Under the pieces are notes generated by a model that searched no databases, was not told where the DNA came from, and worked only from the letters and a program-made list of their open reading frames with translations. Positions 16,940 through 34,093 of a DNA stretch of 34,094 bases are shown here, in pieces (position 1 is the stretch's first letter; every line of letters starts with the position of its first letter). The position numbers and the translations under genes are program-made. The stretch is taken from contig JAGWKL010000016.1 in assembly GCA_028865345.1 (NCBI GenBank), forward strand, positions 1 through 34,094, in the 5' to 3' direction. Origin of the DNA: Candidatus Omnitrophota bacterium (lineage in GTDB: Bacteria; Omnitrophota; Gorgyraeia; Zapsychrales; Fredricksoniimonadaceae).

Positions 16940-19081
16940 TTAATAATTCAACAACAGCATTTCCGCATAGCTGGGCACAGGCCACAGATCGGCCGGGACC
17001 AAACCTTCCAGCTCGTCGATAGGCCCGCGCAGCTTGGCCATGGCGGCAAAAATTTTCAAACCGTCATGCTTGACCAACGCCGCTTCCAGGCTATCGCAAT
17101 TACCCAGGGCTTCCTCGATCAGGGCGGAAACTGCTTTAAGCAGCTTCTTCTGCGCCGTGGTCTTGCCGGCGGAACCGACGGTCTTGATGGTGTCCGCGAG
17201 TTGCTTCTGGTACTCGATGGCCGCGGGAATAAACTGTGTTTTGGCCATCTGCAGGGCGCAATCGCCTTCCAGCACCTGGACCGTCACATAGGCATGCTTG
17301 TTGATCTCAAAGCGGGAAGCTATTTCCTCTTGTGTCAGGACCCCGTGCTTGATCAGGACCTGGATGTTTTTCTTGGCCTTGATGGCTTCCAGGGCTTCCG
17401 GGGTGTTTTTCAAATTGGGCAACCCGCGCTTCTTGGCCTCGGTCTGCCATTGGGGAACATAATTGTCGCCGTTATAAACGACCCTTTTGTGTTTCTTGAT
17501 GATGTCTTGAAGCACTTTTTGCAAAGATTGGTTGAAATCTTTGCCGGCCTTCTTGTCCGCTTCCAGTTGGTCGCAGATGTCGGAAATGCTCTCTGCCACG
17601 ATGGTGTTAAGGACCATGTTGGCGGCTGAAGGGTTCATGCCGGAACCGACGGCGCGGAATTCGAACTTGGCGCCGGTGAAGGCGAACGGAGAGGTCCTGT
17701 TGCGGTCGGTGGTGTCCTTGGCCAGGGTCGGCAGGGAATCAACGCCCACGTGGATGCTGCTGCCCTGCTTGGAGGTCTTGGCCCCGCCGCGTTCGATCTG
17801 CTCGATGATATCGGTCAGCTGATCGCCCAAAAAGATGGACACGATCGCCGGCGGCGCTTCGTTGGCGCCCAGACGGTGGTCATTGCCTGCGGAGGCGACA
17901 CCCACGCGCAAAAGATCGGCATAAGAGTCCACGGCCTTGATGACCGCGCACAAGACCGTCAAGAACTTGGCATTTTCATGCGGGTTCTTGCCCGGATACA
18001 GCCAGTTCTTGCCGTCCGGCCCGACGATGGACCAGTTATTATGCTTGCCGGAACCGTTGATGCCGGCAAAAGGTTTCTCATGCAAAAGGCAGGCCAGCCC
18101 GTGCTTGTCGGCAATGGTACGCATAAGCTCCATGGCCATCATATTGTGGTCCACACCGGTGTTAAGGTCTTCATAGATCGGCGCGATCTCATATTGGGCC
18201 GGGGCCACTTCGTTATGACGGGTCTTGGACGGCATCCCTAAGCCCCACAGCGTACGGTCCAATTCTTCCATAAAGCCCATGATGCGCGGCTTGATGGCGC
18301 CGAAATAATGGTCTTCCTGCTGCTGGTGCTTGGCCGGTTTTTTGCCGAATAATGTGCGGCCGGTCTGCACCAGGTCGGGACGGGCCAGATAATGGGCCTT
18401 GTCGATGAGGAAATATTCCTGCTCGGGGCCCAGAGTGCAATAGGCGCGCTTGCCCTTGGTGTCGATGCCGAAGAGATTGGCCAGTCGGCAGACCTGCTTG
18501 CTCAAAGCCACCATGGAACGCAGCAAAGGCGTCTTTTTGTCCAGCGCCTCGCCGTGATAACCGATATAAAATGTCGGGATGCACAGGGTGGTCGCTTCAG
18601 GGCCTTCCTTGATAAAGGCCGGGGAAGTCGGGTCCCAGCCGGTATAACCGCGCGCCTCGAAAGTCGCACGCAGTCCGCCGGAAGGGAATGAAGAAGCGTC
18701 AGGCTCGCCCTGGATAAGATTTTTACCTGAAAAACTTAAGATAACCCCGCCTTCGTCGTTCCAGTCGATGAACGAATCATGCTTTTCCGCCGTGACGCCG
18801 GTCATGGGCTGGAACCAATGCGTATAATGGGTGGCCCCACGTGCCACAGCCCACTTTTTCATGGCTTCGGCCACTTCATCGGCGATGGTCGCATCCAGTT
18901 TGCCGCCTTCTTTAATGGTCCTTTCGATAGAAGCATAGGCCTTGGGAGAAAGCATTTCTTTCATCACCTTGAGGCTGAATACGTTTTCACCGAAATGTTC
19001 AGGCAAATGCTCGCTGAAAGAACCGTTGCAGCAGCATTCCTCTTGGGCCGCCTGAATGACTTCTTCACGGGTTTGACTCAT
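16940..19081 (-). CDS. glnN: Glutamine synthetase type III
   Basis: 713 aa; GSIII features: [55 protein letters not shown]. Confidence 0.95.
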
Positions 19082-19132
19082 AAATCCTCCTGGTATTGAT
19101 CATTGCTGAAAATGTGGTGTGAAATATGGTGA

Positions 19133-19161
19133 ATATTACTCTTTAACATAAATGTTGTCAA
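19133..19161 (-). promoter_or_regulatory. Strong sigma70-like promoter of glnN
   Basis: Minus strand TTGACA (19161-19156) - 17 nt - TAATAT (19138-19133); spacer holds inverted repeat AACAT-TT-ATGTT. Confidence 0.65.
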
Positions 19162-19190
19162 GATTTTTAACCCCTGCCAAAATCTTAAAG

Positions 19191-19223
19191 ATGGGGCACC
19201 CCGCCTTTGGCGGGGTGCCCCAT
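19191..19223 (-). terminator. Intrinsic terminator or processing hairpin after the PII gene
   Basis: 15-bp perfect stem atggggcaccccgcc/ggcggggtgccccat with a ttt loop, between the PII stop and the glnN promoter; only a weak downstream T tract. Confidence 0.65.
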
Positions 19224-19237
19224 AGACACGAGAGGAA

Positions 19238-19579
19238 CTAACCGATGGCTTTCGATCCTTCCTCACCGGTACGGATGCGGATACATCTTGGCAGATCCAC
19301 GACAAAGATCTTACCATCCCCTATCTTGCCGGTACGGGCCCCTTTGATGATGGCCTTGATCGTCGGCTCAACGAAATCCTCGTTGACCGCGATTTCCAAC
19401 CGTACCTTGCGCAGCAGGTTGCCTGTTTCCTTGACCCCGCGGTAGTACTCGTCCACACCTACCTGGCGGCCGTGGCCAAGGACCTCAGACACGGTGATCA
19501 GATTCACATTCGCCGCATAGAGCTCCTGCTTGACATCTTCGAGCTTATGGGGCTGAACTATGGCTATGACTAATTTCAT
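19238..19579 (-). CDS. glnK: PII nitrogen regulatory protein (GlnB/GlnK family)
   Basis: 113 aa, [20 protein letters not shown]...[20 protein letters not shown]...[13 protein letters not shown]...[15 protein letters not shown]; adjacent to amt. Confidence 0.95.
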
Positions 19580-19607: not shown

Positions 19608-20870
19608 TTATTCTAAGATCGTATACGCACGCTCATGATGCTGGCTCAAGTCGATGCCGACGGCTTCATCTTCGGCTGAAGCGCGGAAACCGCCCAAAAC
19701 CTTATCGACGATAAAACAGATCACCAGCGTCATGATGAAGGTGTATACGGTCGTCAGCAAGCAGCCTTTGGCTTGTGTCAAAAACTGCCCCGCATTTCCG
19801 TCAAACACGCCTGAACCGGCGGAATTGACCGCTTTAACGGCGAACAATCCCGTGGCCAAAGCGCCCCAAAGCCCGCCGATATAGTGCACGCCGAAGGCGT
19901 CCAGGGTATCATCATAACCGAATTTCGGTTTGACGAAGGCCACCATGCAATAGCAGAACACGCTGACCAGAAAACCGATCCATAAGGAACCGCCGACATC
20001 CACAAAGCCTGAAGCCGGAGTAATGGCAACCAGACCGGCCACAGCGCCTGAGCAAGCACCGACCAGCGTGGGAGCGCCTGCAAATATCCACTCCATGGCC
20101 GCCCAGCTGATGGCTGCGGCAGCTGTTGCCGTATTGGTAACCACAAAGGCGCTGGTTGCGAGAGCACCGGCAGAAACTGCTGAACCGGCGTTAAAACCGA
20201 ACCAACCGAACCACAGCAAGGAAGCGCCGAGCATGACAAACGGCACGTTATGCATGCCGGGCTTATTGATGCCTAGGCGTTTTCCTAAATAAAGGCAGCT
20301 GGCAAGGCCCGCAATACCGGCGTTCATGTGCACGACAGTACCGCCCGCGAAGTCCAAAACGCCCCACTGACCTTCGATCCCGTCATGCGACCAGACCATG
20401 TGGGCCACCGGACAATACACAAAAAGCAGCCATAATACGGTCCACCAGACCCAGCCCGAAAATTTGACCCTTTCGGCAAAAGAGCCGATGGCCAGGGCAG
20501 GCGTGATGACCGCGAACATCAATTGGAAGACCATATACGCCTGGTTGGGAATGGTCGGCGCATACGGGTCCGGTGTGCTCATCGAAACGTTGTGCAGCAT
20601 GAACCAGCTGAAGCCTCCGACAAATCCTTTTAATATGCCGGGAGCGCCGGGCCCAAAGGCCAGGCTATAGCCGACAACCACCCATAGTACGCTGACAATG
20701 GCCAGACACATGAAACATTGCATCAACATGCTGTTGACGTTTTTACGCCTTACCATGCCTCCATAGAAGAAGGCCAGGCCCGGAGCCGTCATCGCCAGGA
20801 CCAAGGCGGCTGAGGTCAGGACCCATGCGATGTCCCCGCTGTTAAGGGGATTTGCTGGTGTTGTTCCCAT
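19608..20870 (-). CDS. amt: Ammonium transporter
   Basis: 420 aa, [64 protein letters not shown] upstream of ATG. Confidence 0.96.
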
Positions 20871-20897: not shown

Positions 20898-21023
20898 TTA
20901 AACAAGGTGGTTCTTTAGAGCGAAAAACAGCCCCATAGCTAAAAAAGCCTGCAAAAAGGCAAACATACCTGCAATGAGTTCCGCGTGCCGCAATTTTTTA
21001 CTGGTGGTATGGGTCGCTTTCAT
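20898..21023 (-). CDS. 41-aa single-TM small protein upstream of amt
   Basis: MKATHTTSKKLRHAELIAGMFAFLQAFLAMGLFFALKNHLV; start trimmed from the track's 21134 because AAAAGGAGGGATGCTT lies directly before ATG 21023. Confidence 0.65.
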   Translation of the reverse strand: MKATHTTSKKLRHAELIAGMFAFLQAFLAMGLFFALKNHLV

Positions 21024-21030
21024 AAGCATC

Positions 21031-21300
21031 CCTCCTTTTAAGAAGAATCTGTTCTTAAAGGCCCCCATGAACCTACGAGGTTCATGGGGAATGTTTCCAG
21101 GCAAAAAAAAGTCCGGTTTTTCTAAGCTTATCATCGCTTATAAAAACCGGACTTCAACGCCCTTGTCCCGTTTATACCGGGACTATAAAATAAAAAATCC
21201 CCTTAAGCTTGTTACTTCTCCCAAGAGGACAATTCACTGCCCGTTCTTCTATCCGAAACGCCAGCGCTCCGGATCTATTGATCATTTCAAACTACAAGGG
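21031..21300 (-). promoter_or_regulatory. Structured leader RNA / attenuator (or stand-alone sRNA) of the amt operon
   Basis: On the minus-strand RNA: stem 21251-21274 (10 bp incl. 2 G-U, CUGG loop), hairpin 21199-21228 followed by U6AU4, stem 21165-21183, long terminator-like hairpin 21109-21154 followed by U8, stem 21063-21089 (12 bp, 3-nt loop), stem 21037-21059 just before the RBS. Confidence 0.6.
21103..21154 (-). terminator. Intrinsic terminator in the amt leader
   Basis: aagtccggttttt / aaaaaccggactt 13-bp stem plus inner taagc/gctta, then T8 on the minus strand. Confidence 0.8.
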
Positions 21301-21301
21301 A

Positions 21302-21329
21302 AGTATACCTGCTAAACAAAAAATGTCAA
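21302..21329 (-). promoter_or_regulatory. Sigma70-like promoter of the amt leader
   Basis: Minus strand TTGACA (21329-21324) - 16 nt - TATACT (21307-21302). Confidence 0.65.
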
Positions 21330-21337
21330 GAAAAATT

Positions 21338-21553
21338 TTACAAGCCCTTGACAATCTTCTCCGCCTTGGCCCAATCCTCTTCGGCACTGCCGGGACCGCC
21401 GTTGCGTTTGAGATAAAGCTCATACGCTTTTTCCGCGATCCTCTGCTGCAGGTCCCCGTTGCCGGAAGCCGTCGGGCGCGTCGGAGCCTCGACCCTGTTT
21501 TTGGCCGCGTTGGTTTTGACTGTGGTTCTCTTGACCGTGTTCGCTTGTATCAT
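21338..21553 (-). CDS. DUF2934-like small protein
   Basis: 71 aa; IAEKAYELYLKRNGGPGSAEEDWAKAEKIV resembles the DUF2934 signature. Confidence 0.7.
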   Translation of the reverse strand: MIQANTVKRTTVKTNAAKNRVEAPTRPTASGNGDLQQRIAEKAYELYLKRNGGPGSAEEDWAKAEKIVKGL

Positions 21554-21657
21554 AGACGCCTCCAGGAAATAAAAAATCTTTGATCTAGCAAATATGGGAA
21601 ACCATCCTATACCTGAAGGCGCAATTTTGTCAATAAAAAAATTTCTCTAACAGGTTT

Positions 21658-21839
21658 TCACTTCTGAAGTTCCGACAATGGGCTTCAGCGGGCGCTTTCT
21701 TGGTCGTCGGTTACTTCTGCAACTCCGCCATAAGCATGATTGATTCCGCGATCTCTTTCAAAAGGCTTCAGTAGCGCTCTCTTGGTCGTCGTTACTTTTG
21801 TAGCTCAGCCATAAGTATTATAGACTCAGATATTTCCTT
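21658..21839 (-). repeat. Tandem imperfect copies of the 3' tail of the ANTAR gene
   Basis: Tails KEISESIILMAELQK* (21839-21792), KEIAESIMLMAELQK* (21758-21711) and remnant LSELQK* (21678-21658), separated by a shared spacer CGACGACCAAGARAGCGC..CTGAAGC. Confidence 0.85.
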
Positions 21840-23021
21840 CATGGATTTGCAGGTGTCCATGCTTTTTTTATGGATCAGGCGATACGCCGCCTCTTCGGAA
21901 AGGCTGTTCATTTTCATCAGGATCCCCTTGGCCCGTTCTATGACTTTACGTGTTTCGAGGGCCTCCCTGGCCTTCAGGGCTTCCTGCATCAGTTTGGTGT
22001 TCTCCACTGCCACGGCCGCCTGGTTGGATACCATCTGCAAGACCCCGATCTCTTCCTCTGTAAAATGGTGCGGCTCCTTGGTATAGACATTGACGACGCC
22101 GATGGCCTTGGTTTTGACGATCATGGGCACCGCCACCATGGAAGTCAATCCCTCTTTAACGGCCAGGTCACGGTACACATATTTTTCGTCCTTGCGCACA
22201 TCATAAACAACCGCAGGCTTTTTAGTTTGGAGTACGGAACCGGTCAGGCTGTTGGCTACCTTAATATTGGGCTTGAGCTTATATTCCGCGCTCAAGGACT
22301 GCGTGGCCGCCATCGAAAGCTCCTCGCCTTTTTCGTCCAGCAGCATGATGGAACATATCTTGGAGTTGAGCATTTCAGCCGTGACCACCACGATCAGGTT
22401 AAGGATCTCATCCAGGTAACTTTCACTCGTGATCGAATGGCTGACCTTGATCAAAGAATCAAACTGCATGGCCTTTTTCTTGGTCTCTTCGAAAAGCCTG
22501 GCATGTTCGATGATACCGCCGGCCTGCTTGGCGATCATGTCAATCAGGTTGACGGTTTCCACCGAATAATCCTGCTGGCTCTTATGCTGGACATTAACGA
22601 CCCCCACGGCCCTTCCCTTATAAATGATGGGAACGGACAAAAACGCCTCATACCGGTCTTCCGGAAGCACGTCAAAACTTTTGAACCGGGGGTCCTTGTA
22701 GGCGCGCGCCTTGATGGCCACGGTCTTGTTCTCCCGGGCCACCCAGCCGGTGATGCCCTCCCCGGTTTTGAGAACAATGTTGCCCAGCTCCTTTTTGTGG
22801 GCGGTCTTGGAGGCCATGAGCACGAGGTTGCTCTTGTTCTCGTCCAGAAGATAGATAAAAACAGAATCCGCGTCCGTCATCTCGGTGACGATCTTGACGA
22901 TCAGCTGCAGGGTCAGGCTTAAGTCAAGCTCTGAAGAGGCAATGTCCACGATGTTGCGCAGGATCTGCAGCTCCTGTGCCGCAGTCACGCTTACCTTCTT
23001 ATTTTTAGTTCGTTCAGCCAT
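21792..23021 (-). CDS. GAF-GAF-ANTAR domain regulator (putative RNA-binding antiterminator)
   Basis: Two GAF-like repeats (GEGITGWVARENKTVAIKARAYKDPRF..., TGSVLQTKKPAVVYDVRKDEKYV...) and C-terminal ALETRKVIERAKGILMKMNSLSEEAAYRLIHKKSMD (ANTAR). Confidence 0.9.
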   Translation of the reverse strand: MAERTKNKKVSVTAAQELQILRNIVDIASSELDLSLTLQLIVKIVTEMTDADSVFIYLLDENKSNLVLMASKTAHKKELGNIVLKTGEGITGWVARENKTVAIKARAYKDPRFKSFDVLPEDRYEAFLSVPIIYKGRAVGVVNVQHKSQQDYSVETVNLIDMIAKQAGGIIEHARLFEETKKKAMQFDSLIKVSHSITSESYLDEILNLIVVVTAEMLNSKICSIMLLDEKGEELSMAATQSLSAEYKLKPNIKVANSLTGSVLQTKKPAVVYDVRKDEKYVYRDLAVKEGLTSMVAVPMIVKTKAIGVVNVYTKEPHHFTEEEIGVLQMVSNQAAVAVENTKLMQEALKAREALETRKVIERAKGILMKMNSLSEEAAYRLIHKKSMDTCKSMKEISESIILMAELQK

Positions 23022-30134: not shown

Positions 30135-30164
30135 ATTCTAAATATCGAACAAAAAGATTGTCAA
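30135..30164 (-). promoter_or_regulatory. Candidate promoter for the Spy-like gene pair
   Basis: Minus strand TTGACA (30164-30159) - 18 nt - TAGAAT (30140-30135); the -35 overlaps the upstream stop codon. Confidence 0.4.
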
Positions 30165-33100
30165 GGATTAATCGAAGTAAAACCTGTCAAGCCGCCGGCG
30201 GTCAAAGGCGGCAAAGGATTAAATAAAAATTGCTGCAGGTAGCTGTGCGCTAAAATACGTTGTGCCAAGGCCCCTTCCATGTAGACGATTTGGGCCAAAA
30301 GCTGCCAGTCAGCTTTCTGTTCCTCCTTGATCCAGGCAGGGTTTGATGTCCGGTCCATCTGATCAAGCATGGCGATCGCCCGCCGGCATTGCTCCTTGGC
30401 GCGGACAAAGTCCAGGTGCTGAAAATAGAATACGGCCTTGATTTCAGCCTGGACCACCTGGCGCATTGTCCCATGGAAAAGCAAGGCCTTTTTAAGCCTC
30501 TGCCGCAATCTCTTAAGCTCCCCGCCAGACTCTCCGCCGGAGACCTGCATGTCTTGAAGATACATTTGGGGGCCGACGAGCTGTTCATATCTTTCCATCA
30601 TTTGCCAAAGTTTGAAGATCCCTTCAGGCAGGTCTTGCGGTTTTAAATACGTCAGGGCCCTTTCCTGCCAGAGAATGGCGTTCCTCACTTCCCCATACCG
30701 GATGAAGACATCCGCCATTTTGTCCGACCACAGCTCAGGGCCGGTCGAGGCCAGAGGCTCCCCGGAGGATTGGGCCAGGATCTCCTCGGCCAACGTCAGC
30801 GCCTGGGCATATTTTCCCTGGTCATACATATTAATGAACGCCTGAACATCCCCGCTGATGTCGCCCGGCCTGCCCTGGCTGGATTTGACGGGCCCGAAGG
30901 ACGCCTGGCCTATGGGCATGGCGGGTGCCGACGTCACATTCGAGAACAACGGCCCCAGGGTGATATAAAATCTGACCGTGACGGGATTGCTCGTCAGTTG
31001 GGAATCGGTGGCCGAAATCGAAATTTGCTCGATCTTCGTCATGTTCATCAGCCCGCCCGCCGTCAGGACGCCGTCGGTAAACCCGAGCACCTCGCCTGTC
31101 CCTAAAACCACGGGGCGGCCTGAAGCGTCCGTCACCGTAGGAAGGTTGGCGCTCCCCAGTCCCGCCGCATCAAAGGTGAAGGTCTTGTCTCCGGTATAGG
31201 AGACCGCCACGTTGCCGTACGGGTCAAAGGCCGTCAGGCCCAGCTGGTCGGTCATGCCCACCGTCAGCAGTGCCGACGGCGCCGTCAAAACCAGGCTGCT
31301 TGCGGCGCCGGCGTTCACCGTGATCGTCACCGTAGCGCTCGTCAAATGCCCGTCGGTGGCTGAAAGGCCGAAGGTCTGGGCCTTGTAGAGGCGCATCAGA
31401 CCGCCGGCGGTACTCACCCCGTTGGTGAAGGTCAGCAACTCGCTGGTACCGAAACCGGCCGCCGTGCCGGATAAGTCCGTCACCGTCGGAGAATAAACGC
31501 CTATGGCGCCCGCTCCGCTGAAGGTGAAGGCCCTGTTACCGCTATATGTGGTCGCCACGTTGCCGAATACGTCATACGCGGTGATCGTCAGTTGATCGGT
31601 GTCGCCCGCGGTCAGGGTGGTGGTCGCCGGTGTCAGGACCAGCCTGACAGCCACGGCGGGAGTGACCGTTATCCCCACCGTGTTGCTCGTCAGGGTCCCG
31701 TCGCCGGCAACCATGGAGGCATTCTCTACTTTGTAAAGGGTCATCAGGCCGCCGGCCGTGCTCACCCCGTTGGTAAAGGTGATTGTTGTAGGCATCCCCA
31801 AATCCACCGCAGCGCCGGTCTTGTCTGTCACGTCGGGAATATAGCTGTTGAAGTTGCTGGCGCCGCTGAAGGTGAAGGTCTTGTCGCCGGTATAACCGGT
31901 CGCCACGTTGCCGTAGGTGTCATAAGCTGTAACGGTCAGCTGGTTCGTGCTGCCGGCGGACATCGTGTTGCTCGCTGCGGTCAATTCCAGGCTGACGGCC
32001 GCACCCGGCGTAACTGCCACATTTAAAGTATTGGTGGTAAAGGTCCCGTCATTGGCTGTGATGGAAGCATTCTGTGCTTTATACAAGGTCATCAACCCGC
32101 CTGCCGAACTGACTCCGTTGGTGAAGGTCATGGTCTCGGAGGTGCCGAAGTCGACCGCCCCGCCTGTCTTGTTCGTCACTGTAGGATGGTAGGAGCCGAT
32201 GGTATTAGCCCCCGAGAAGGTAAAGGTCTTGTCCCCTGTATATCCCGTGGCTACGTTGCCGTAGGTATCGTAAGCTGTGATCGTCAACTGGTCGGTCGCG
32301 CCTGCGGTGATGCTGCCGCTTGCCGCTGACAATGTCAAACTTACTGCCGCCGCAGAGCTGACCGTCACAGGAACGGAATTGGAAGTCAGGGCGCTGCTCG
32401 TCGCGCTGACAGAAGCTGTCTCAGCTTTATACAAAGTCATCAATCCGCCTGCCGTGCTGACACCATTGGTAAAGGTCAGGGTCTCAGAGGCCCCGAAATT
32501 GATTGCCGTGCCGTTTTTGTCCGTCACCGTCGGATGATTGCCGTATGCGGAGACGGACGCGCCGCTGAAGGTGAAGGTCTTATCTCCGGTATAAGAAGTG
32601 GCCACGTTGCCATAAGTGTCATAGGCTGTGATGGTCAGCTGATCGGTTGTGCCGGCAGCGATTGAGCCCGAAATGGCGGACAAGGTGAGGCTGACAGCCG
32701 AAAGCGGATTGACAGTCATACTCACGGCATTGCTGGACAGGGTCCCGTCATTGGCAATGATCAACGCATTCCCAGCCTTGTACAAAGTCATGAGCCCCCC
32801 TGCCGTACTGACACCATTGGTAAAGGTCAGGGTCTCGGAAGTTCCGAAGTTTACCGCTGTCCCGTTCTTATCCGTGACCGTCGGATGATAGCTGCCCACC
32901 GTACCGGCCCCTGAAAATGTGTATGTCTTGTTGCCGGTATAGGAGCTCGCCACGTTGCCATAAGTGTCATAGGCGGTGACCGTCAATTGGTCTGTGCTGC
33001 CTGCCGGCATTGTTGAGCCGGCCGCGGTAAGGGTTAGGCTCGCTGCCGCCGAGGCACTGACCGTCACTGAGACAGTGTTGCTGGTGAAGGTCCCGTTGGT

Positions 33101-34093
33101 AGCCGAAACCGCTGCTGTCTGTGCATCATATAATGTCATGAGCCCGCCGGCGGTGCTCACCCCGTTGGTAAAGGTCAGATTTTCGACCGTGCCGAAATGG
33201 ATCGCAGAACTGGCATTGTCCGTTACCGTGGGGCTGGTGCCGTCGGGTGAGCCGGACGCGCCGCTGAAGGTGAAGGCCTTGGCGCCTGCGTATGAGGTCG
33301 CCGTGTTGCCGTATGTATCGTAGGCTGTGATCGTCAACTGGTCGGTTGCGCCTGCGGTGATGCTATTACTTGCTGCTGACAGGGTCAGGCTGGCTGCCGC
33401 CGCCGGAGACACCGTTACGCTGACGCCATTCGTAGTCATGCTGCCTATGGTCGCTGAAATGGATGTGGCCCCCGCTTTATAAAGCGTCATCAACCCGCCT
33501 GCGGAACTGACACCATTGGTAAAGGTGATGGTCGTTGATGTCCCGAAAGTTTTGAGGGCGCCACTCTTGTCTGTTACCGTCGGGTAATAGGCGCCAATGT
33601 TAGTTGCCCCGCTAAAGCTCACGCTCTTGTCACCGGAATAAGAAGTCGCCACGTTGCCGTAGGTGTCATAGGCTGTGATCGTCAGCTGATTGGTGTTTCC
33701 GGCCAGCATGGAGCCGCTGTTGGCCGACAACCCCAAGCTTACGGCTGATGAAGGCGTGACACTGACATTGGCGGCATTGCTGGTGAAGATACCGTCGGTG
33801 GCGGTGATCGAAGCGCTCTGGACCTTATACAAGGTCATCAACCCGCCTGCCGTGCTCACCCCGTTGGTAAAGGTCAACGTCTCGGAGGTTCCGAAGTTAA
33901 CTGCGCTGTTTGTCTTGTCCGTTACCGTCGGATGATAACTGCCTATGCTGTTGGCTCCTGCAAAGGTAAAGGTCTTGTCTCCCGTATATCCCGTGGCTAC
34001 GTTGCCGTATGTATCGTAGGCTGTGATCATCAACTGGTCGGTCGCTCCTGCGGTGATGCTTCCGCTTGCTGCTGACAATGTCAAACTTGCTGC
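30161..34093 (-). CDS. Long repetitive Ig-like/adhesin-type surface protein, C-terminal part (N-terminus beyond right edge)
   Basis: Frame open to the right edge (AASLTLSAAS... upstream of the track's TTG start at 34084). Nine ~116-aa repeats with core DQLTITAYDTYGNVATSYTGDKTFTFSGA...TFTNGVSTAGGLMTLYKA, then a TPR-like helical C-terminal domain. Confidence 0.9.
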   Translation of the reverse strand, partial: AASLTLSAASGSITAGATDQLMITAYDTYGNVATGYTGDKTFTFAGANSIGSYHPTVTDKTNSAVNFGTSETLTFTNGVSTAGGLMTLYKVQSASITATDGIFTSNAANVSVTPSSAVSLGLSANSGSMLAGNTNQLTITAYDTYGNVATSYSGDKSVSFSGATNIGAYYPTVTDKSGALKTFGTSTTITFTNGVSSAGGLMTLYKAGATSISATIGSMTTNGVSVTVSPAAAASLTLSAASNSITAGATDQLTITAYDTYGNTATSYAGAKAFTFSGASGSPDGTSPTVTDNASSAIHFGTVENLTFTNGVSTAGGLMTLYDAQTAAVSATNGTFTSNTVSVTVSASAAASLTLTAAGSTMPAGSTDQLTVTAYDTYGNVASSYTGNKTYTFSGAGTVGSYHPTVTDKNGTAVNFGTSETLTFTNGVSTAGGLMTLYKAGNALIIANDGTLSSNAVSMTVNPLSAVSLTLSAISGSIAAGTTDQLTITAYDTYGNVATSYTGDKTFTFSGASVSAYGNHPTVTDKNGTAINFGASETLTFTNGVSTAGGLMTLYKAETASVSATSSALTSNSVPVTVSSAAAVSLTLSAASGSITAGATDQLTITAYDTYGNVATGYTGDKTFTFSGANTIGSYHPTVTNKTGGAVDFGTSETMTFTNGVSSAGGLMTLYKAQNASITANDGTFTTNTLNVAVTPGAAVSLELTAASNTMSAGSTNQLTVTAYDTYGNVATGYTGDKTFTFSGASNFNSYIPDVTDKTGAAVDLGMPTTITFTNGVSTAGGLMTLYKVENASMVAGDGTLTSNTVGITVTPAVAVRLVLTPATTTLTAGDTDQLTITAYDVFGNVATTYSGNRAFTFSGAGAIGVYSPTVTDLSGTAAGFGTSELLTFTNGVSTAGGLMRLYKAQTFGLSATDGHLTSATVTITVNAGAASSLVLTAPSALLTVGMTDQLGLTAFDPYGNVAVSYTGDKTFTFDAAGLGSANLPTVTDASGRPVVLGTGEVLGFTDGVLTAGGLMNMTKIEQISISATDSQLTSNPVTVRFYITLGPLFSNVTSAPAMPIGQASFGPVKSSQGRPGDISGDVQAFINMYDQGKYAQALTLAEEILAQSSGEPLASTGPELWSDKMADVFIRYGEVRNAILWQERALTYLKPQDLPEGIFKLWQMMERYEQLVGPQMYLQDMQVSGGESGGELKRLRQRLKKALLFHGTMRQVVQAEIKAVFYFQHLDFVRAKEQCRRAIAMLDQMDRTSNPAWIKEEQKADWQLLAQIVYMEGALAQRILAHSYLQQFLFNPLPPLTAGGLTGFTSINP

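Follow-up and report, generated by a model that had tools for sequence, protein, structure and literature searches.

ANTAR-target RNAs are described as tandem hairpins whose hexaloops have A as the first and G as the fourth nucleotide (A1 and G4), with one of the hairpins overlapping a terminator (PMC3369931). In the literature consulted it is the second hexaloop that overlaps the terminator stem. Three known systems are close to the locus described here, a leader on the minus strand (21031-21329) of contig JAGWKL010000016.1 of Candidatus Omnitrophota bacterium (assembly GCA_028865345.1), the whole 34,094-nt stretch of which was analysed and is called the window below. The EutV/eut leaders of Enterococcus faecalis (PMC3369931, PMC8934654) resemble it in their tandem short hairpins (5-12 nt apart in eut) with a conserved G4, in the second hairpin that shares the 5' arm of the terminator, in the presence of several terminators per operon, and in an ANTAR domain with the same G4-binding residues. 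The differences are that EutV has a receiver domain phosphorylated by a kinase, whereas GAF-GAF is fused to ANTAR here, that the targets are the genes for the ammonium transporter (amt), P-II and glutamine synthetase (GS), and that the loops in the window are mostly G1, with two of 8 nt; the partner hexaloop of many relatives sits at the tip of the terminator. The NasR/nasF leader of Klebsiella (PMC7496416) is similar in that a sensor domain is fused to ANTAR and nitrogen assimilation is controlled by antitermination, but NasR has a NIT nitrate sensor and the window protein has two GAF domains. In other phyla, e.g., in Desulfotomaculum, ANTAR RNAs have been predicted ahead of P-II, amt and GS genes, with the same targets and the same RNA class, and the 2012 survey pointed out that ANTAR proteins with GAF or PAS domains had yet to be characterised (PMC3369931). 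Our literature search found no report of such ANTAR RNAs for Omnitrophota.

The minus strand of the window carries, in this order, a GAF-GAF-ANTAR gene, a DUF2934 ORF, the leader, a 41-aa ORF, amt, P-II and type III glutamine synthetase (GSIII) (Table 1), and farther downstream an amidotransferase, an NAD synthetase and a glutamate synthase, all of them predicted and named from sequence. The leader very probably consists of two tandem ANTAR-dependent antiterminators, at which transcription stops by default after ~107 and ~193 nt and where an activated ANTAR dimer opens the amt-PII operon. It belongs to the known ANTAR class; the lineage and the regulon are new, and a variant with a hexaloop at the terminator tip is frequent.

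Table 1. Coordinates of the leader elements and neighbouring genes in the window, listed in minus-strand order
Feature	Position	Strand	Basis
GAF-GAF-ANTAR protein gene, proposed antiterminator	21792-23021	-	Pfam ANTAR 4e-20, two GAF stretches
DUF2934 ORF	21341-21553	-	between ANTAR gene and leader
Promoter TTGACA-N16-TATACT, sigma-70-type	21302-21329	-	TTGACA 21329-21324, TATACT 21307-21302
P1, 9-bp hairpin, hexaloop GCUGGC (G1, G4), first ANTAR-type hairpin of unit 1	21251-21274	-	folding, covariation
P2, antiterminator hairpin GGGC-AGUGAAUU-GUCC, 8-nt loop (A1, G4)	21227-21242	-	folding, model R1 37.0 bits
T1, intrinsic terminator, stem -10.0 kcal/mol, U6AU4 tail	21187-21230	-	folding, helix covariation
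Spacer hairpin GUCCCG-GUAUAAA-CGGGAC, interval from T1 to P3	21165-21183	-	folding
P3, antiterminator hairpin GGGC-GUUGAA-GUCC, hexaloop (G1, G4)	21149-21162	-	folding, model R1 30.3 bits
T2, strong intrinsic terminator, stem -24.5 kcal/mol, U8 tail	21103-21154	-	folding
Perfect palindromic hairpin (12-bp), just 5' of ribosome-binding site	21063-21089	-	folding
Small hairpin	21043-21056	-	folding
41-aa single-TM ORF, first gene of controlled operon	20898-21023	-	ORF call
amt, ammonium transporter	19608-20870	-	PF00909 at 1e-114; TIGR00836
P-II family nitrogen regulator	19238-19579	-	PF00543
GSIII, type III glutamine synthetase	16940-19081	-	domain searches

The minus-strand RNA of the leader folds at -105.1 kcal/mol compared with -68.2 +/- 4.3 kcal/mol for 200 dinucleotide shuffles (z = -8.5), none of which (0/200) reached an equal value. 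An earlier note on this DNA had read the region as a minus-strand attenuator of the amt operon or a new sRNA, with a promoter, six stem-loops and two terminators, and had suggested an Rfam search and a look in relatives for covarying pairs and an antiterminator. The promoter is present where it had been placed and matches the consensus at 11 of 12 positions; a comparable TTGACA...TATA promoter also stands 5' of the leader at related amt loci. All six stem-loops appear in the fold, but as judged from sequence comparison the conserved device is made up of P1, P2/T1 and P3/T2 only. The two terminators, proposed at 21199-21228 (with U6AU4) and 21109-21154 (with U8), were recovered as T1 and T2, respectively, and the distance of ~80 nt from T2 to the small TM ORF agrees. 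Both had escaped a generic terminator scan because their loops exceeded its 8-nt limit or their stem contained a mismatch. Among the remaining hairpins, the spacer hairpin was rejected as a functional part, being absent from several relatives, and so was the palindrome, which has a single copy in the genome and was not found in the leader of the nearest relative.

What the earlier reading overlooked were P2 and P3, which compete with the terminators, and the upstream ANTAR gene; P2 and P3 would be the antiterminator that had been asked for, and its likely effector gene is next door. The 3' arm of P2 doubles as the 5' base of T1 and that of P3 as the 5' base of T2, each pair having GUCC in common, and the members of each pair are mutually exclusive as predicted structures, with a calculated -4.5 kcal/mol for P2 against -10.0 kcal/mol for T1 and -4.2 kcal/mol for P3 against -24.5 kcal/mol for T2. 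Comparison of the intervals from the ANTAR gene to amt in relatives revealed a repeated element, GGGC-RNNGNN-GUCC, in which the 3' arm at the same time forms the 5' base of a terminator, and a total of 72 distinct units with such a hairpin/terminator overlap were gathered, mostly from relatives. The tip of T2, UAAGC-GAUGAUAA-GCUUA, occupies the place of the second ANTAR hexaloop of the relatives.

Covariation in relatives is evident in P1, which was left out of every covariance model, so that the test is independent. Across nine sequences (the window and eight relatives) 7 of its 9 pairs changed on both sides, compared with 3.3 in shuffles, and 98.8% of cells are paired; a hexaloop with A1 and G4 occurs in seven of the nine. 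P2 begins 8 nt past P1 in the window, the corresponding spacing in the eight relatives being 7-9 nt, and P3 is separated from the T2 tip by ~8 nt. Loop positions 1 and 6 of P1 are G-C or A-U in 7/9 sequences; in the wider set of units no convincing association between these two positions was seen. Among the base-hairpin loops of the relatives G4 occurs in 64/64 and A1 in 56/64 units, partly owing to model selection. All loops in the window have G4, with A1 in P2 only and G1 in P1, P3 and the T2 tip, and the loops of P2 and the T2 tip are 8 nt long, so the window copy departs from strict A1/G4 hexaloops. Such loops might bind weakly. P1 of the nearest relative (G003) has G1 as well, which marks this as a trait of the lineage and not the decay of one copy.

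The plain pattern GGRCRNNGNNGTCC was rejected as a search tool, with 61 matches in the whole genome against 38 for a reversed control, mostly without a terminator; since it is too unspecific on its own, a covariance model that includes the terminator was used. Seven units went into this model (R1); two are from contig C57 of the same genome, and the leader of the window contributed none. It detects both window units (E = 5e-8 and 4e-6 for the first and the second), and in the 2.1-Mb genome the sole other significant place is a tandem pair 58 nt apart, located before a PAS-LuxR gene. On this sequence evidence the PAS-LuxR regulator is a predicted second member of the regulon. No other ANTAR units in the genome are as good as this tandem pair (L062 1919-2032, on contig C57 of genome G000), which stands directly before the PAS-LuxR gene and whose tips are the hexaloops AAUGAU and GAUGGU; G003 carries a similar pair (L079), and two weaker unit-like terminators lie past the PAS-LuxR gene (L062 887-998). 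In the terminator helix of 36 units from 19 sources, changes on both sides were seen at 12/14 pairs, and the paired fraction of cells was 95.6% compared with 67% in shuffles, figures that are inflated by the fitting of this alignment to the model.

Rfam 15 gave 0 matches at the gathering score; the best one below threshold reached 26.3 bits where 50 would have been needed and was not credible. A leader with several hairpins and with terminators ahead of a nitrogen operon would also be expected from a metabolite-binding riboswitch or a leader-peptide attenuator on the amt operon, yet besides the lack of an Rfam match, conservation is limited to hairpins of 14-24 nt with a G4 loop and includes neither a junction nor a pocket, a three-frame translation has no evident leader peptide before T1, and the leader is tightly linked to an ANTAR gene, all of which renders this explanation exceedingly improbable. 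The earlier note was right in recognising no riboswitch class, since the leader is, in our reading, a protein-dependent antiterminator.

Comparison across the phylum supports the attenuator part of the earlier proposal. In 53 ANTAR loci, nearly all of Candidatus Omnitrophota, the R1 matches are located on the strand of the ANTAR gene and usually just downstream of it, and the only two matches on the opposite strand are mirror images of plus-strand terminators. Of the units, 35 have amt as the next gene and 23 have GSIII, and the other ten are followed by DUF2934, PAS-LuxR or other genes. Among 285 genomes of the phylum, R1 matches and ANTAR genes co-occur (75/82 vs 136/203; Fisher p = 1e-5, with phylogeny ignored), and the strict model R1 finds no match in the majority of the phylum's genomes that bear an ANTAR gene. 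Outside the order, which contributed no training data to the model, at least 11 genomes have a match within ~3 kb of an ANTAR gene, and the genes beside a few of these units resemble, by eye, those for type I glutamine synthetase, P-II and amt. From these comparisons, the ANTAR switch is predicted to govern the nitrogen genes throughout the lineage.

These data also bear on whether the product is a free-standing sRNA of ~190 nt, running from the promoter to T2 and acting in trans, with read-through into the operon being incidental. Such an RNA would account for the strong promoter and the strong T2, and Rfam offers no match that would speak against a new sRNA. What is conserved, however, is a hairpin competing with each terminator ahead of same-strand nitrogen genes, similar units precede GSIII, type I GS, amt and PAS-LuxR genes, and leader length, spacer and number of units differ among relatives, which fits a repeated switch better than the body of an sRNA. 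We consider a trans-acting sRNA highly improbable, and this half of the earlier proposal finds no support as the main function, the terminated RNAs of ~107 and ~193 nt being explicable as OFF products.

The candidate antiterminator protein has the sole ANTAR match (PF03861) in the genome and is kept across the order, with 54 of 55 relatives matching the whole protein or its domains. Among solved structures, its first GAF domain is nearest to N-terminal GAF domains from PtsP-type phosphotransferases, and the second GAF domain resembles that of NifA. PtsP- and NifA-type GAF domains sense glutamine or 2-oxoglutarate status in some bacteria. Our guess, drawn only from the target genes and the GAF similarity, is that the signal may be nitrogen status, perhaps nitrogen limitation. 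For the ANTAR domain, the nearest solved structures are EutV, Rv1626 and NasR. The RNA-contacting residues of EutV, including a tyrosine that stacks on G4, are known (PMC8934654), and R142, K143, K149, E160, Y164 and M172 are identical here, with R142, K149, E160 and Y164 being those that contact or order the G4 nucleotide. K147 is R in the window protein, and four residues that contact the backbone in EutV differ, with H for R168, D for N173, C for R175 and S for R177.

The course of events that we infer for the antitermination switch is as follows. In transcription from the promoter (21329-21302), P1 would form first and then P2, whose 3' arm also starts T1, and the same would apply to P3 and T2. 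In the absence of an active ANTAR protein, T1 and T2 would prevail as the more stable structures and the RNAs of ~107 or ~193 nt would be released. The GAF-GAF-ANTAR protein would become active in response to nitrogen status, probably when nitrogen is limiting, via its PtsP/NifA-like GAF domains, and its dimer would then bind the loops with the conserved G4, namely P1 together with P2, and P3 together with the T2 tip hairpin. The bound dimer would hold P2 and P3 and thereby block closure of the terminators, and RNA polymerase would read on into the small membrane-protein gene, amt and P-II. ANTAR RNAs that overlap the ribosome-binding site or the AUG are known (PMC8164766), and an ANTAR target could exert its main effect on translation or on the stability of the RNA, or have its polarity reversed, as has been reported for some actinobacterial ANTAR RNAs. 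In the window, however, the hairpins overlap terminator bases ~80-200 nt upstream of the start codon and the terminator pairing is strongly conserved, and we regard such modes of action as very improbable here.

Two topologies can be distinguished among the antitermination units. In the genus of the window and some others, T1 is in the textbook order, with P1 upstream and P2 sharing the terminator base. Many other units have no upstream P1, and their terminator tip is an RNNGNN hexaloop (e.g., AAUGUU, AAUGAC and AGCGAU) located 6-12 nt past the base hairpin. Among the 27 non-seed units whose tip is a hexaloop, 13 fit RNNGNN against an expected 12.5% (p = 7e-6), a statistic that keeps some bias as the model scores the tip too. 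It can be speculated, with more doubt than confidence, that Omnitrophota harbor an ANTAR variant where the base of a terminator faces competition from one hexaloop hairpin and the intact tip of this terminator is the partner hexaloop, the dimer gripping the forming terminator and peeling its base open, with GAF-GAF-ANTAR directly reading glutamine or 2-oxoglutarate and nitrogen control extending across the phylum. The terminator-tip arrangement could alter views on how an ANTAR dimer captures nascent RNA. An uncultured phylum hereby gains a concrete, testable nitrogen-control circuit consisting of a sensor protein, RNA targets and target genes, and a GAF-ANTAR case with clear cognate RNAs becomes available.

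Several further observations were made in the window and its counterparts. The 41-aa single-TM ORF (20898-21023), for which no match was found in Pfam or NCBIfam, is possibly a small membrane partner of Amt. Several relatives (L005, L006, L009, L019, L020 and L029) have short TM ORFs with little sequence similarity at the equivalent place. No ANTAR unit was found in the window at 19082-19237, 5' of GSIII; this interval carries a TTGACA promoter of its own and a GC-rich hairpin with perfect pairing, and the nearest relative has an ANTAR unit before GSIII (L136 8729-8777). The promoter region of the DUF2934 ORF (21554-21633) looks like a lost ANTAR unit. A U-rich AGATTTTTTATTT stretch is kept there without a hairpin, and L005 and L006 have a complete ANTAR-type terminator unit at the equivalent place. 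Also, the end of the window (30161-34084) contains a large ORF with many near-identical repeats of ~110 aa, of Ig-like or cell-surface type.
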